Below are positions 51,895 to 57,752 of a stretch of 64,000 nt of DNA, piece by piece; position 1 is the first letter of the stretch; each line of letters starts with the position of its first letter. Origin of the DNA: Algoriphagus pacificus (GTDB lineage Bacteria; Bacteroidota; Bacteroidia; Cytophagales; Cyclobacteriaceae); the NCBI RefSeq assembly GCF_017254845.1, contig NZ_JAFKCU010000001.1:310001-374000 (forward strand), read 5' to 3'. A program made the position numbers and the translations under genes. The notes under the pieces are model-generated. The model was not told the origin of the DNA, did not search any database, and saw nothing but the letters and a program-made list of their open reading frames with translations.

Positions 51895-53696
51895 TGAATG
51901 ACCAAAGACCTGTAGCAATCGTAATTTTTATTTTCTTGGTCGGTGTAGTGCTTTTAACAAAGCTCTTTCTGATTCAAGTGGTGGATGACAGCTTTATGAA
52001 AAAAGCTGAGAGGAATGCTATTCAAAGAGTGGTAGATCATCCATACCGAGGGCTTGTTTATGACCGCAACGGAAAATTGCTGGTTTACAACAATCCTATT
52101 TTTGACTTGATGCTGGTACCAAAAGAATTTGAAGTTGGGGACACCACTCGATTCCTGGATATTTTTGGCATTACCAAAGAAGAGCTTATTGAAGCATATA
52201 CGGCTGCAAGGAAATATTCGCCAGTAAAACCTTCTCCCCTCATCAAGCAAATTTCAACGACTGATTTTGCAAGAATTCAGGATTATCTGATTGATTATCC
52301 AGGCTTGTTTATCATGACAAGATCAGTCAGATCCTACCCTCTTCCCATTGCAGCACACGCCTTAGGCTATATCGGTGAGATAAATGCCCGACAGTTAGAA
52401 TCTGATTCTTCCAACTATTACCGTCAAGGGGATTATGTTGGTTTGAGTGGAATGGAGCGATTCTACGAGAATCAACTCCGTGGACAGAAAGGTGTGAAAT
52501 ACAAAATGGTAAACGTCCGAGGAGTGGATAAAGGCCCTTTCAAAGATGGGGAATACGATACCGCCTCTGTAGCCGGAACCAACATTACTTCTACCATAGA
52601 TATGGAGTTGCAGCGCTATGGCGAAATGCTGCTGAATGGAAAAAAAGGTTCAGTAGTAGCTATCGAGCCAAAGACAGGGGAAATTTTAGCTATGATCTCT
52701 GCTCCTTTTTATGATCCAAACGATCTAACTGGAGCTGACTTTAGCAACACTTATAGAAGTCTTAATTCGGATGAAAGCAAACCGCTTTTCAACCGTCCAA
52801 TTATGGCTACATATCCTCCTGGTTCAATTTTCAAAGTAGTACAAAGTTTAATAGGTCTGCAAGAAGGGATTCTGACTCCCGAAACAACCTTTGCCTGCAA
52901 CAAGTCTTTGGTTGCTTGCCATAATCACCCCTCTCCGGTCAATTTATTCGGAGCGATCAGAAATTCTTGTAATCCTTATTATCATCAGGCTTTCCGACAA
53001 ATCATCAATCAAGAAAAATCTTCAAACACTTACAAGGACACTGAAATCGGCTTGAATGCATGGAGAGAAAAAGTCCTAAAGTTTGGACTTGGCGGTAGAT
53101 TGGGAGTAGACATGCCAAATGAAAAAGGTGGAGACGTTCCTTCCAGTAAATATTATGATAGATTTTATGGAGAAGGAAGATGGAAATATTCAACCATTTA
53201 CTCTCTTTCAATAGGCCAGGGAGAAATGCTTGTCACTCCACTTCAAATGGCGAATTTGGCTGCAATTTTTGCCAATAAAGGATATTACTACACTCCTCAT
53301 TTGGTGAAAGCTATAAATGGAGATCCGAATCAGATTCCAGAAAAATACCAGATCAAAAACGAAGTGGGGGTTGATTCCTATCATTTTGATATGATTCAAG
53401 ATGCGATGGCGCAGGCACTCTATGGAACAGCGACCAGAGCTATTATCAAAGACATCGAAATTGCCGGTAAAACAGGGACTGCGCAAAATCCACACGGGGA
53501 AGATCACTCGGTCTTCGTTGCTTTTGCACCAAAAAGTGACCCTAAAATTGCTATCGCAGTATATGTGGAAAATGCTGGTTGGGGTGGTCGTGCAGCAGCA
53601 AGTACTGCTTCATTGATGATCGAAAAATACATCCGTAAAGAAATAACCAGACCTGAATTGGAGCAATATGTGCTAGCAGGTAACTTCATTTATTAA
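51894..53696 (+). CDS. mrdA: Penicillin-binding protein 2 (elongasome transpeptidase)
   Basis: About 600 residues from the ATG at 51894, preceded by a strong purine-rich ribosome site aaggagggg (51879-51887), uncommon in this phylum. N-terminal membrane helix (about 7-27), the pedestal/dimer domain (about 45-215), then the transpeptidase: SIFK (Ser311 nucleophile), SCN (SxN) and KTGTAQ. It crosslinks peptidoglycan during rod elongation, working with RodA whose gene follows with a 1-base overlap. Confidence 0.95.
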   Translation: MNDQRPVAIVIFIFLVGVVLLTKLFLIQVVDDSFMKKAERNAIQRVVDHPYRGLVYDRNGKLLVYNNPIFDLMLVPKEFEVGDTTRFLDIFGITKEELIEAYTAARKYSPVKPSPLIKQISTTDFARIQDYLIDYPGLFIMTRSVRSYPLPIAAHALGYIGEINARQLESDSSNYYRQGDYVGLSGMERFYENQLRGQKGVKYKMVNVRGVDKGPFKDGEYDTASVAGTNITSTIDMELQRYGEMLLNGKKGSVVAIEPKTGEILAMISAPFYDPNDLTGADFSNTYRSLNSDESKPLFNRPIMATYPPGSIFKVVQSLIGLQEGILTPETTFACNKSLVACHNHPSPVNLFGAIRNSCNPYYHQAFRQIINQEKSSNTYKDTEIGLNAWREKVLKFGLGGRLGVDMPNEKGGDVPSSKYYDRFYGEGRWKYSTIYSLSIGQGEMLVTPLQMANLAAIFANKGYYYTPHLVKAINGDPNQIPEKYQIKNEVGVDSYHFDMIQDAMAQALYGTATRAIIKDIEIAGKTGTAQNPHGEDHSVFVAFAPKSDPKIAIAVYVENAGWGGRAAASTASLMIEKYIRKEITRPELEQYVLAGNFIY

Positions 53697-54970
53697 TGCG
53701 GGAATCAGACATACATATTGATCGGGTTGACTGGCTAGTTGTGGCCATTTATTTTGCATTAGTCATTTTTGGCTGGTTCAATATCTATGCTGCAGTATAT
53801 GATAGTCAAGCCCCTCAAAGCATGTTTGACATGTCTATCAACTCCGGTCAGCAGCTTGTAAGAATTGGTATATCTGTGGTTTTGATTGTACTGATCATGG
53901 TGGCGGATTACCGTTTCTTTGAAAACCTATCTCTATTTATCTACATTTTTTTCATTGCCTTATTGGTCGTCACTCCATTTATAGGAAAAGAAGTAAACGG
54001 TCAGGTTTTGACTGTCGGCGTTGGTTCCTTCCGAATTCAGCCAGGTGAATTTGCAAAATTGGCTACTGCATTAGCACTAGCCAAGGTGATGGAACGGCCT
54101 ACCTTTGATTTGACCAAAACCAAAAATCAACTCATCGCTTTTGGTGTCTTACTGCTTCCTGTGGCTCTGATCCTTTTGCAGCCAGATACTGGAACAGCAA
54201 TGGTGTATTTTTCTTTGCTTGTGATGTTTTATCGTGAAGGATTGCCCCAACGCTATTACATCCTAGGTTTTGGATTTATTGCTTTGACACTTCTATCCTT
54301 GGGCATAGAAAACAACCTTTATCTGGTCGCAGCAATTGCCATAATAATCCTGATTCTTATCCTAATGGGGAAAAAGACCTGGCAGAGGATTGTGGTATTC
54401 TCATTAATTGGATTGGGCATGATTGCCTATAGCTACAGTATCGATTTTGTTGTTTCTAAACTTCCAGACCACCAGCAAAACCGGGTTATGGTCCTTTTCA
54501 ATCCCAATTTGGATCCATTAGGAGTGGGTTGGAATGTAACACAGTCTAAGATTGCTATTGGATCCGGGGGATTATTAGGAAAAGGCTATTTGGAGGGAAC
54601 GCAAACAAAATTTGATTTCGTACCTGAGCAGCACACAGATTTTATTTTTTGCACACTAGGAGAGGAATTTGGCTGGATTGGTAGCTTGATAGTAATCGGA
54701 CTATTCGTAACTCTTTTGGTGCGATTGGTAATAATGGCTGAGCGCCAGAAAACCAGATTTTCCAGAATCTATGGATATGGGGTCATTTCCATTCTGCTTT
54801 TTCACTTTATGATCAATATTGCAATGACCATAGGACTTTTCCCTGTGGTAGGGATTCCTTTACCATTTTTTAGCTATGGGGGTTCTTCGCTTTGGTCCTT
54901 TACCATTTTGCTTTTCATCTTCGTCAAAATGGATTCTTCGAGAGCAATGCAATTGGGAAGATTGGGATAA
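53696..54970 (+). CDS. rodA: Peptidoglycan glycosyltransferase RodA
   Basis: 424 residues, about 10 membrane helices, SEDS family. Motifs: LQPDTGTAMVY (about 162-172), the extracellular EQHTDFIFCTLGEEFG (about 311-326) and the C-terminal PLPFFSYGGSSLW (about 388-400). RodA polymerises lipid II with PBP2. The ATG overlaps the mrdA stop by one base. Last gene of the mre operon; it meets the HD gene tail to tail with a 1-base gap and no visible terminator. Confidence 0.95.
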   Translation: MRESDIHIDRVDWLVVAIYFALVIFGWFNIYAAVYDSQAPQSMFDMSINSGQQLVRIGISVVLIVLIMVADYRFFENLSLFIYIFFIALLVVTPFIGKEVNGQVLTVGVGSFRIQPGEFAKLATALALAKVMERPTFDLTKTKNQLIAFGVLLLPVALILLQPDTGTAMVYFSLLVMFYREGLPQRYYILGFGFIALTLLSLGIENNLYLVAAIAIIILILILMGKKTWQRIVVFSLIGLGMIAYSYSIDFVVSKLPDHQQNRVMVLFNPNLDPLGVGWNVTQSKIAIGSGGLLGKGYLEGTQTKFDFVPEQHTDFIFCTLGEEFGWIGSLIVIGLFVTLLVRLVIMAERQKTRFSRIYGYGVISILLFHFMINIAMTIGLFPVVGIPLPFFSYGGSSLWSFTILLFIFVKMDSSRAMQLGRLG

Positions 54971-54971
54971 A

Positions 54972-55547
54972 TCAGGATTCAAGAAGCTTTTTAAGCCATT
55001 CCTGTTTTTTCGGCTCCCTGTTTTTCACAGCGAAAGGGGTTTGAAAATGATGCGCTTTCAAAAAATTAATCTGAAGATTTTTCCACTGTTCTTCAGTTTC
55101 CAAGACTTTCATGTATTTCAATTCCTGATAGAGCCTGCTGCTTATTTCCGGATAGTCCGAACGACCTAAATAATCCAGGTCTGCATCACAGATTATTTTT
55201 TGAAGATCATTTAAAGGTGTCTGGGGAATTTTTGTAGCCATTACGAGACCTTTTACCTCTGCAATATAATTTCCCGGCATTCCGAGATCAGTCATGATTT
55301 CAGCTGCCATTTCCGAGCCAACAGCTTCATGATTGGCAGGTCCTTTCAAAAAACCCATGTCATGTACAATAGCTCCCATTCTTAACAAATACCTTTCTTC
55401 CTCGTTGAGCTTGAGTCTTTTGATGTATTGCTCACAAACATTCAGCACATCCAATGTGTGATCCATGCCATGGTATGATAAATAATCAGGCAGGTTTGCC
55501 TTTAATTTATCCAATACAATTTTTCTCAGTTTTAGGTATCCTTTCAT
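54972..55547 (-). CDS. HD-domain phosphohydrolase, partner of the PycTM-like protein
   Basis: 191 residues. Metal ligands of the HD fold are all seen: His26/His30 in YHGMDHTLDV, the HD pair His62-Asp63 in VHDMGF, His73 in ANHEAV and the aspartates in ICDADLDYLG (Asp121, Asp123). Such enzymes hydrolyse phosphodiesters or nucleotides. The gene follows a Pycsar-effector-like membrane protein by 18 bases on the same strand. From memory, this HD type is often fused to that effector domain in Bacteroidota, so here the two parts may be split. A role in degrading a cyclic or modified nucleotide signal is inference. Confidence 0.8.
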   Translation of the reverse strand: MKGYLKLRKIVLDKLKANLPDYLSYHGMDHTLDVLNVCEQYIKRLKLNEEERYLLRMGAIVHDMGFLKGPANHEAVGSEMAAEIMTDLGMPGNYIAEVKGLVMATKIPQTPLNDLQKIICDADLDYLGRSDYPEISSRLYQELKYMKVLETEEQWKNLQINFLKAHHFQTPFAVKNREPKKQEWLKKLLES

Positions 55548-55565
55548 TTATTTGAAAAAGATTTT

Positions 55566-56132
55566 TCAGCCTTGTAACGCTGTTCTTAAGGCATAATACA
55601 AAATAAAAACAAACAATAGGCCAATATTAAAGGAAAGAAAGCGAATTGATAGGTTGACATTACGGAATTTCGCTGCTGTAATCTTTGCATTGATATAAAC
55701 TTGTTCCCCTAATTGATCCAAATAGGGTCTTCTTTCTATACTAATTTTTTCAAGAACTCTAACATATTCCTTGATCGTACCATAGGAATGGATAATATCA
55801 CCAAAGAAGAAAACGCTCTTATCGAACTTGCTTTCTATCTGCGGCATAAAACATCTAAAGCTATAATAAATGGAGATAACGCTAAACAAAAACCATAAGG
55901 ATAAAAAAATGTAAATGAACGGATCACTTCCAGCCACCTCAATCAAATGGTCAGAAAACTGAAAGAAAACATTGATTAAAAGACCATAAAATGAAAGGAC
56001 CAAGCCCGCTTTGATTTCAGAGGCTTTAATCAGATCTCTCAAGTAATTGATCAGGTACCAATAATTATCAACGATATCTAACCCTTCATCAAACTCAGGA
56101 ATATCATCTATTCCCTTTTGCTTTTTGGCCAT
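55566..56132 (-). CDS. Pycsar-effector-like membrane protein (PycTM / DUF5706 type)
   Basis: 188 residues. Helical N-terminal region (about 18-43), two membrane helices (about 44-60 and 72-95), a soluble part (about 100-155), and a third membrane helix at the C-terminus (about 164-183). The segment with R93xxxP97 just after helix 2 and FFFGDIIHSY (about 108-117) is the pattern I associate with PycTM effectors of Pycsar anti-phage systems. Those effectors respond to cUMP or cCMP made by a cyclase and disrupt the inner membrane. No cyclase gene is nearby; the downstream neighbour is an HD phosphohydrolase. Family call is from memory; not verified. Confidence 0.68.
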   Translation of the reverse strand: MAKKQKGIDDIPEFDEGLDIVDNYWYLINYLRDLIKASEIKAGLVLSFYGLLINVFFQFSDHLIEVAGSDPFIYIFLSLWFLFSVISIYYSFRCFMPQIESKFDKSVFFFGDIIHSYGTIKEYVRVLEKISIERRPYLDQLGEQVYINAKITAAKFRNVNLSIRFLSFNIGLLFVFILYYALRTALQG

Positions 56133-56197: not shown

Positions 56198-56238
56198 TAC
56201 TCTGAGTTTAGAAAGAGATTGAAAAAAATTTTAAAAAA

Positions 56239-56260
56239 AAGGGCATTAAAAAATGCCCTT
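56239..56260 (-). terminator. Terminator after the 369-residue protein gene
   Basis: Arms aagggcatt and aatgccctt around aaaa, followed by T-rich sequence on the minus strand. Confidence 0.82.
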
Positions 56261-56283
56261 TTCATCAATCAAACAAATGAAGT

Positions 56284-57393
56284 TTAAACTTCATCAAATT
56301 TTCTGTAGATCAATAACAGAAATTCCTGAACAGGTTCTGTATCGGTCTCCCAATTCAACTCATGCACATATCTCTGATTAACAAGCTGAATGGCTTCATT
56401 AAAGGTACGGCAATCATCTATTGATTTCAAGGCATGGGTCAATAAATCCGAGTTTCCGTCAAAAAGCTCTTTGGTAAACATAAACCGTTGGTTGATAGCC
56501 AAACTCTCAGAGAGCTCTCCAATAACCCCTTTCATACCTTTATAAGATTGAGAAGCAAACCTGGATTTCAAAGTCGAAGGATTAAGATCTGCTCCATTGG
56601 ATGGTTTTGAAACAGGCTCTGCATAAACGGGCTCCTTATAAACAGGTTCTTCCACCTTTGGTTCTTCCACTTTTCGCTCGACTGGCTTTTCCTCCTCCAT
56701 TTGGTCAAAAAATGAAGAACTGGTTTCCTGAACAGGTTTGGTTTCCGGAGCAGAAAAAGTCGGTTCATTCTCTTTTTCCAAGTAGGCATCCAAGTTGAAT
56801 GCCTTCACATCACCCAATGTGGCTAATAAAAGATTCTCTGATTCCAAGGAGTCTTTTACTACTTGATAATTCGCACTGATTGCTCTTAAATATTCTCCTT
56901 TGTCATGTCCAAACCCTGCTTTATCGATCAAGAAAGAAACAGCGCGGTCATGCCATTTGTAATATTTTTTATTCTCCTTGAGGTAATCATTTATTTTGCT
57001 GTCTGGTGCTTTGGAAACCTCGGATTGGTAGTATCCAACCGGATCAGTTGCCAAAAACACAGCTTGGGAGACAGCAGCTTCAACCAATGGTTTTAAATCG
57101 TCCTTCTCCACTTTGATTCTGCGGGAAAGCACATTCATAAACTGTGTAAGAGCATCATGAACAGCGATATCCCGATAATCGAAATAGGGATTACTTTTTA
57201 GCTTGGCCAATTCTTCCTGCCAAAGCTCAAACAACCTTTTGATCACAAAGAAATTAACCTGCGTACTACTGGTCAGTTTGATAATATCCTGACCCGTGAT
57301 GTATTTCTTATTGGAAAAAAATCTTTCGCAAACGATGCTAGCGTATTCGCTGGCATATTTTTCTAAATAATTGCTGTTAATTTGAATTGTCAT
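56284..57393 (-). CDS. Conserved-looking protein with a Pro/Glu/Val repeat linker, function unknown
   Basis: 369 residues, no signal or membrane segment. An N-terminal helical domain (about 1-200; includes the ITGQDIIKLTSSTQVNFFVI and RDIAVHDALTQFMN segments) is joined by an acidic low-complexity linker with repeats of VEEP / VYKEP / VYAEP (about 215-265) to a C-terminal helical domain (about 275-369). This looks like two folded helical units on a flexible tether. I do not recognise the family. It is divergent from the ferredoxin gene (33 bases between starts) and has its own terminator. Confidence 0.75.
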   Translation of the reverse strand: MTIQINSNYLEKYASEYASIVCERFFSNKKYITGQDIIKLTSSTQVNFFVIKRLFELWQEELAKLKSNPYFDYRDIAVHDALTQFMNVLSRRIKVEKDDLKPLVEAAVSQAVFLATDPVGYYQSEVSKAPDSKINDYLKENKKYYKWHDRAVSFLIDKAGFGHDKGEYLRAISANYQVVKDSLESENLLLATLGDVKAFNLDAYLEKENEPTFSAPETKPVQETSSSFFDQMEEEKPVERKVEEPKVEEPVYKEPVYAEPVSKPSNGADLNPSTLKSRFASQSYKGMKGVIGELSESLAINQRFMFTKELFDGNSDLLTHALKSIDDCRTFNEAIQLVNQRYVHELNWETDTEPVQEFLLLIYRKFDEV

Positions 57394-57425
57394 TGATGAG
57401 TTCTGTTTTTAAAAACAACGAACAA

Positions 57426-57752
57426 ATGCCTCGAATCGTCATTCAAAATTTATTTAATCGCGAGATTTATTCGAAATCCCCTGGACGTAAAGTTATCGAA
57501 TTAATTCATGAAAATGGAATTGATTGGATGCATGCCTGCGGGAAAAAAGGCAGATGTACTACCTGTAAAATTATTTTGAAAAAAGGTTCAGAAAACCTGA
57601 GTCCCATGACAGCCGCAGAAGAGAATTTTTCAAAATTGGGAAGGTTAAAAGCCAATGAACGGTTATCTTGCCAAGCTCAATTAGATTCTGGAGAAATAAT
57701 AGTCAGAGTAGCTGAGATCAATAAATTTCCTCATTTAGAATACAGCGAATAG
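57426..57752 (+). CDS. 2Fe-2S ferredoxin-like protein
   Basis: About 108 residues from the ATG at 57426 (other starts at 57387 or 57396 would overlap or abut the divergent gene). Cysteine pattern [10 protein letters not shown] then LSCQ fits a plant-type 2Fe-2S cluster (four ligands, one pair separated by two residues). It is a small electron-transfer protein, partner unknown. The tdk gene starts 2 bases after it, so it heads a ferredoxin-tdk-recO operon. Confidence 0.85.

Follow-up and report, generated by a model that had tools for sequence, protein, structure and literature searches.

PycTM and HD genes at the rodA locus

The window analyzed here, a stretch of 64,000 nucleotides from Algoriphagus pacificus (contig NZ_JAFKCU010000001.1, positions 310,001 to 374,000), contains two adjacent genes that encode a PycTM-family membrane protein and an HD phosphohydrolase. 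The pair is located tail to tail with rodA, downstream of the gene for a 369-aa protein, and comparison with related genomes suggests that it belongs to a chromosomal signaling circuit with the cyclase gene elsewhere, rather than to a classic defense system. The locus comprises the following features.

55566..56132, minus strand: PycTM-family membrane protein, 188 aa (PF18967, PADLOC PycTM, hydropathy, subfamily alignment A3)
55548..55565, minus strand: gap of 18 bases between the PycTM and HD genes (from the coordinates of both open reading frames)
54972..55547, minus strand: HD phosphohydrolase, 191 aa, predicted to be cyclic-nucleotide phosphodiesterase-like (PF01966, AF2 model, structural matches, conserved positions)
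53696..54970, plus strand: rodA, convergent with the HD gene and stopping one base short of it; marks the conserved site
56284..57393, minus strand: 369-aa protein, function unassigned, whose gene ends 151 bp upstream of PycTM and forms the second border of the conserved site

An earlier note, made from the sequence alone, had delineated both reading frames with this spacing and proposed that they encode a PycTM-like effector and an HD phosphohydrolase; both the coordinates and the identities are borne out. The 18-base spacing is consistent with a single transcript. The membrane protein matches the Pfam PycTM family (PF18967; E = 1.3e-11, 45.3 bits against a cut-off of 27.2) and the PADLOC PycTM model (PDLC02364; E = 3.9e-26), and thus has the effector feature, PycTM or PycTIR, of Pycsar systems. 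It contains three hydrophobic stretches (about 42-60, 72-90 and 161-179), and its subfamily is characterized by the ASEIKAG and CFMP...FFF motifs (alignment A3). The AF2 model of this protein (mean pLDDT 64.8) was not used.

The second protein matches the HD family (PF01966; E = 1.2e-6, 29.2 bits against a cut-off of 22) and contains the motifs YHxxxHxxDV, HD, DAD and QxxF. The residues H26, H30, H62-D63, H73-E74, D121 and D123, which presumably include the metal ligands familiar from HD enzymes, are invariant in 54 to 56 of the 56 stand-alone HD proteins and in all 28 fused HD domains, counted over the homologs that cover each position (the 56 include cut versions of a single gene); Y25 is replaced by F in nine fusions. 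In the AF2 model (pLDDT 94), the protein is predicted to adopt, over nearly the whole chain, the catalytic-domain fold of class I phosphodiesterases (PDEs), the closest structural matches being PDE10A and PDE7A, so that the predicted fold resembles that of animal cyclic-nucleotide PDEs; the YHxxxHxxDV and HD motifs are shared as well, although, with 191 aa, the protein is shorter than the PDE catalytic domains matched. The conserved Q159 and F162 may correspond, judging by order and spacing alone, to the residues that we take to be the base-binding glutamine and the clamp phenylalanine of class I PDEs, and the PDE motif itself is likewise assumed. The window HD protein is predicted, in both substrate and catalysis, to be a cyclic-nucleotide phosphodiesterase.

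Class III cyclases linked to relatives of the pair

Pycsar systems consist of a pyrimidine cyclase and a PycTM or PycTIR receptor, according to the available excerpt of PMC11224242, and PycTM is entered in a defense table in the excerpt of PMC11719660. No class III cyclase was matched within the window, in keeping with the earlier note, which had seen no cyclase beside the effector, and because no cyclase gene adjoins the effector, we do not claim a Pycsar system. A search of the whole genome detected six class III cyclases, all encoded elsewhere, with the nearest on the same contig about 0.6 Mb away. One of the genes, G000:C1:975475-976515 (G000 is our label for this genome; G and L numbers denote sampled genomes and loci), encodes a receiver-cyclase with Response_reg and Guanylate_cyc domains, with a gene for a receiver and a large sensor-like one ahead of it.

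Relatives of both PycTM and HD are linked to class III cyclases. In 146 family genomes that are at least 95% complete, all 44 short-frame PycTM matches besides that of the window were retrieved together with flanks of about 4 kb, contig ends permitting. The order cyclase-PycTM-HD was found at four of these, and four others (L134-L137) have a cyclase alongside PycTM in the classical manner; HD and PycTM are overlapping genes, in that order, at four loci (L103-L106), and a single locus in another genus (L142) has PycTM-HD at rodA. The remaining 31 have neither HD nor an adjacent cyclase by the profiles used; at one of them, L112, a partial cyclase lies 2.6 kb off. Searches with the A3 alignment in 341 genomes of the order and 392 of the phylum, where at most eight or nine candidates per genome were scored and matches may be missed, yielded at least 11 subfamily loci outside the genus, and in eight of the 11 a class III cyclase match is located nearby (G181, G209, G534, G575, G586, G596, G635 and G822). 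In G586, G635 and G822, the gene order is receiver, receiver-cyclase, PycTM. In a tree of 26 HD proteins, the window HD joins those of cyclase-PycTM-HD loci (99/95); in one of 32 PycTM proteins, several of them long-branched, the rodA-site PycTMs form one clade (100/99) whose sister branch (98/86) consists of PycTMs encoded after receiver-cyclases and one solo PycTM, the sister grouping itself being supported at 94/87, just below the program's star.

A full-length receiver-cyclase, 71-100% identical, is encoded in all 22 Algoriphagus genomes with an HD gene at rodA, each time with a receiver match just upstream, and in G009 it is the sole class III cyclase. Because it is universal in these genomes and adjacent to PycTM in relatives, the receiver-cyclase is the putative partner of the pair. 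Homologs of the TPR-cyclase were rejected for this role, being absent at E = 1e-20 from the PycTM genomes G009 and G037 and hence not universal. The earlier proposal of a two-part system probably does not hold, given that PycTM relatives lie beside class III cyclases and that the window's genome has, at another place, a receiver-cyclase of the type that adjoins three of these relatives. The TPR-, GAF/PAS- and receiver-cyclases have K plus D or T at the positions that we take to be diagnostic of adenylyl cyclases, unlike the aligned PycCs (L134, L135, L136 and L242), which lack them.

In L288 (5266-7377, minus strand, G058:C42), a GAF/PAS-like class III cyclase is fused to an HD domain of the window HD's family, and a YitT gene follows with a 4-base overlap. 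The 880-aa product of a gene at L274 (6099-8741, minus strand, G073:C9) contains TPR repeats and, at its C terminus, an HD domain of the same family; its beginning looks TIR-like by eye, without a Pfam match, and the gene is convergent with that for a receiver-cyclase. In L144, L145 and L146, the cyclase-PycTM-HD genes are directly preceded by one whose long product repeats the unit NKFRAIVN or NEFKPIVN, and the TPR part of the L145 cyclase occupies a frame of its own. Another class III cyclase of the window's genome (L151, 4336-5706, plus strand, G000:C38) has an N-terminal stretch that is 33% identical to the 2Fe-2S ferredoxin encoded in the window (57387-57752).

PycTM or YitT in the genus

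In a sample of 60 genomes of the genus, the same for the PycTM, HD and YitT counts, 46 encode a match to the window HD outside HD-PycTM fusions. In 22 of these, the HD gene is at rodA, which adjoins it in every case, and the protein shares at least 64% identity with the window HD; in the other 24, the identity is 32-40% and the gene adjoins, by coordinates, one for YitT, an uncharacterized Pfam family with five transmembrane segments (5 TM). The 22 genomes include 12 with a full-length window-type PycTM, all of which have the HD, two with a remnant of 105-107 aa, and eight with no PycTM match. A close YitT ortholog (at least 71% identical) is present in all 10 genomes without a full PycTM and in none of the 12 with one. 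Thus, PycTM and the close YitT ortholog are mutually exclusive in the genomes sampled, and the 46 HD genomes divide into 12 with PycTM and 34 with YitT (including G058, whose YitT is 46% identical yet adjacent), none having both or neither. The same 14 of the 60 genomes, all smaller than 3 Mb, lack matches to HD and to the YitT family. When kinship is ignored, the 12/10 split would arise by chance once in 646,646, a figure that kinship makes too strong; on the RodA tree, the change between PycTM and YitT takes five steps, four of them forced by well-supported branches.

In these genomes, the window-type PycTM was never seen without HD, and HD persists without PycTM; this is in line with HD removing a signal that another membrane partner uses as well. 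YitT/DUF2179-HD pairs also occur next to receiver-cyclases, with the same HD family and the same cyclase type; their membrane protein is YitT (5 TM) instead of PycTM, and their HD proteins come from other branches, one group being supported at 95/95. The exclusivity makes the membrane roles of PycTM and YitT testable by a swap within one genus. The remnants, in L022 and L023 (G024 and G056), are frames just upstream of HD with similarity confined to the final part of PycTM; their starts are alike by eye, and both genomes carry YitT.

A putative cyclic-nucleotide circuit

On balance, the evidence somewhat favors the view that PycTM receives, and HD clears, the signal of a chromosomal cyclic-nucleotide circuit. 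Under this scheme, a sensor histidine kinase would control the receiver-class III cyclase whose gene lies about 0.6 Mb from the pair, and this enzyme would produce a 3',5'-cyclic mononucleotide, with cAMP as the likeliest product. The inner-membrane PycTM would respond to the nucleotide, for instance by acting as a gated channel or by switching the membrane state, and the HD protein, as a small phosphodiesterase whose predicted fold resembles that of class I PDEs, would hydrolyze the signal and reset the system; in sister species, a YitT/DUF2179 membrane protein would take the place of PycTM. The protein families, the conserved site, the links between relatives of both proteins and class III cyclases, the cyclase-HD fusion, the similarity of the predicted fold and the PycTM/YitT exclusivity in the sampled genomes are observed; the substrate, catalysis, gating, physiological output and the assignment of this receiver-cyclase to the pair are inferred. 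It is conceivable, albeit with greater reservation, that PycTM is a non-suicide membrane receptor in a hitherto undescribed Bacteroidota pathway of the cAMP type, in which the receiver-cyclase is the source, a compact HD phosphodiesterase with a fold like that of animal PDEs is the sink, and the membrane component is exchangeable for YitT/DUF2179. On that reading, the PycTM of Pycsar would have branched off into defense from a housekeeping signaling family, and YitT proteins would be linked to cyclic nucleotides. No publication tying PycTM, HD and YitT together was found by titles and beginnings of abstracts in the open-license literature, outside which most subscription papers lie, and none on DUF5706 in the same literature. 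If the apparent tie of the window PycTM to a receiver-cyclase is real, there would be a concrete hypothesis for the YitT family, and a bacterial HD phosphodiesterase family would become testable.

Several observations weigh against this interpretation. On the enzyme side, the list of structural matches is crowded with PDE entries, so that other HD enzymes may score nearly equally (other HD families are absent from the 50 rows shown and might appear beyond them). The HD protein scores 14.3 bits against the class I PDE family PF00233, below the cut-off of 24.8, and this profile gave one weak match and none over the cut-off in 198 genomes of the phylum. Among PDB entries, its best profile relative is a predicted HD hydrolase, 2pq7 (E = 7.9e-8), and PDEs appear in PDB sequence searches at E = 0.04 and above, confined to the HD-motif region. 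On the cyclase side, the receiver-cyclase is unlinked to PycTM in the window's genome, is equally present in the 10 rodA-HD genomes without a full PycTM, and, in 15 of 21 loci, has neither of the two genes within 1.5-kb flanks; no recognized cyclase was found at three of the 11 subfamily loci (G345, G654 and G699). The receiver-cyclase domain reaches up to 79.7 bits with the PADLOC models of PycC, so its products may include cyclic pyrimidines. Finally, all 12 genomes with PycTM retain a paralog of YitT, 41-45% identical to the query and present as a second copy in many other genomes, which might serve in place of the ortholog, and the four well-supported independent PycTM/YitT contrasts, all as expected, give a sign-test value of 0.125, the lowest possible with four, a number too small for significance.

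The chief alternative, which we regard as unlikely, is an anti-phage Pycsar-type module in which PycTM is a suicide effector that HD holds off by degrading cUMP or cCMP, the trigger being a cyclase acting in trans or phage interference with HD. Membership in the PycTM family, the presence of HD in all 12 genus genomes with a full PycTM, as would befit an effector with a safety, and the PycC scores of the receiver-cyclase are compatible with such a module, and activated PycTM is described as disrupting membrane integrity in the excerpt of PMC11224242. Nevertheless, the pair occupies a stable core site at rodA, flanked by housekeeping genes and common to another genus, rather than an island; the candidate cyclases contain receiver, TPR or GAF/PAS-like parts and putative adenylyl-type residues, the latter missing from the aligned classical PycCs; PycTM is exchanged for YitT; and a single viral-contig scan (119 pattern stretches) detected no relative of the pair. 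Defense is not the best-supported role, and unlike Pycsar, the pair has an HD partner. Given that PADLOC scores the window PycTM as a Pycsar effector, PycTM-only defense counts would be inflated if the circuit is real. L232 was considered as a Pycsar locus and remains unconfirmed; the neighboring protein failed to align as a cyclase. The Panoptes system (OptS and OptE; PMC12657218, excerpt) likewise combines a cyclic nucleotide with a small membrane protein in a two-gene operon, but has an S-2TM-beta effector and an mCpol synthase, and a term search of the available text gave no mention of HD.

It is quite improbable that HD is a general nucleotide or nucleotidase-type phosphohydrolase, with an unrelated PycTM and a mere conserved neighborhood. 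In favor of this reading, HD-fold enzymes act on many substrates, the closest solved sequence relative is a predicted HD hydrolase, and HD is retained in those 10 genomes, out of 22, that have no full PycTM. Against it, other families again show members of the same HD family by cyclases, together with PycTM or YitT, one HD is fused to a cyclase, and the 14 of 60 genomes without HD are the same that have no YitT-family match. Hydrolysis of the nucleotide by HD, suggested in the earlier note, is kept here as a predicted step. The observation made in that note is confirmed, and its interpretation holds in part: the identities, the lack of an adjacent cyclase, the fusions discussed below and predicted degradation by HD are retained, the split form is not, a two-part system is improbable, and defense is not the best-supported role.

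Relationship to HD-PycTM fusions

At least one PycTM match was detected in 95 of the 146 family genomes, and, among the 124 matches listed, 79 belong to frames at least 390 aa long; HD is present in all 28 long frames checked (27 returned as loci, plus L001). The window's genome has three PycTM matches, namely, the fusion L001, the solo PycTM L002 and the window copy. Fusions are common, as the earlier note stated, with an HD motif in 27 of 27 long frames among 30 PycTM loci of the family, in the order HD-PycTM, and PycTM-HD pairs also exist in relatives. These fusions (PF18967, about 400 aa) consist of the same two domain families as the window pair, which has the reverse order in separate genes. 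Fusion HDs form a separate branch (100/97), and so do the fused PycTMs together with some solo ones (96/97), with the window proteins outside both. Position 159 of HD is Q, as in the window, in 52 of the 56 stand-alone proteins and N, T or S in all 28 fusions; the other four stand-alone proteins, all of the overlapping HD-then-PycTM type, have N. Likely split forms exist at L103-L106, and L096 (the same gene as L105) falls with the fusions in both trees. That the window pair is itself a split fusion, as the earlier note worded it, is extremely improbable, because it lies outside the fusion branches, has the reversed order and has Q159; the trees refute this reading unless long branches mislead. 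Apparent read-through fusion frames of 386-394 aa at three loci were discarded, as translation gave a stop codon between the genes.

Genomic setting

From their translations, the neighboring genes in the window appear to be nusA, infB, mreB-mreC-mreD, a PBP2 gene, rodA, and those for thymidine kinase, recO and rho, so the surrounding 64 kb look like core genome; no defense genes were seen in the window, where the PADLOC scan covered the PycTM, HD and 369-aa genes. The 13 named relatives found are 12 Algoriphagus and one uncultured Cyclobacteriaceae metagenome-assembled genome. A scan of the window gave five promoter-like sites (8.8 in shuffles) and five terminator-like sites (1.7 in shuffles), none of them between the 369-aa gene and PycTM. 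A hairpin with A/T runs at 56232-56270, just beyond the end of the 369-aa gene and not among the sites of the scan, is, by eye, a possible terminator that would set this gene apart from PycTM-HD.
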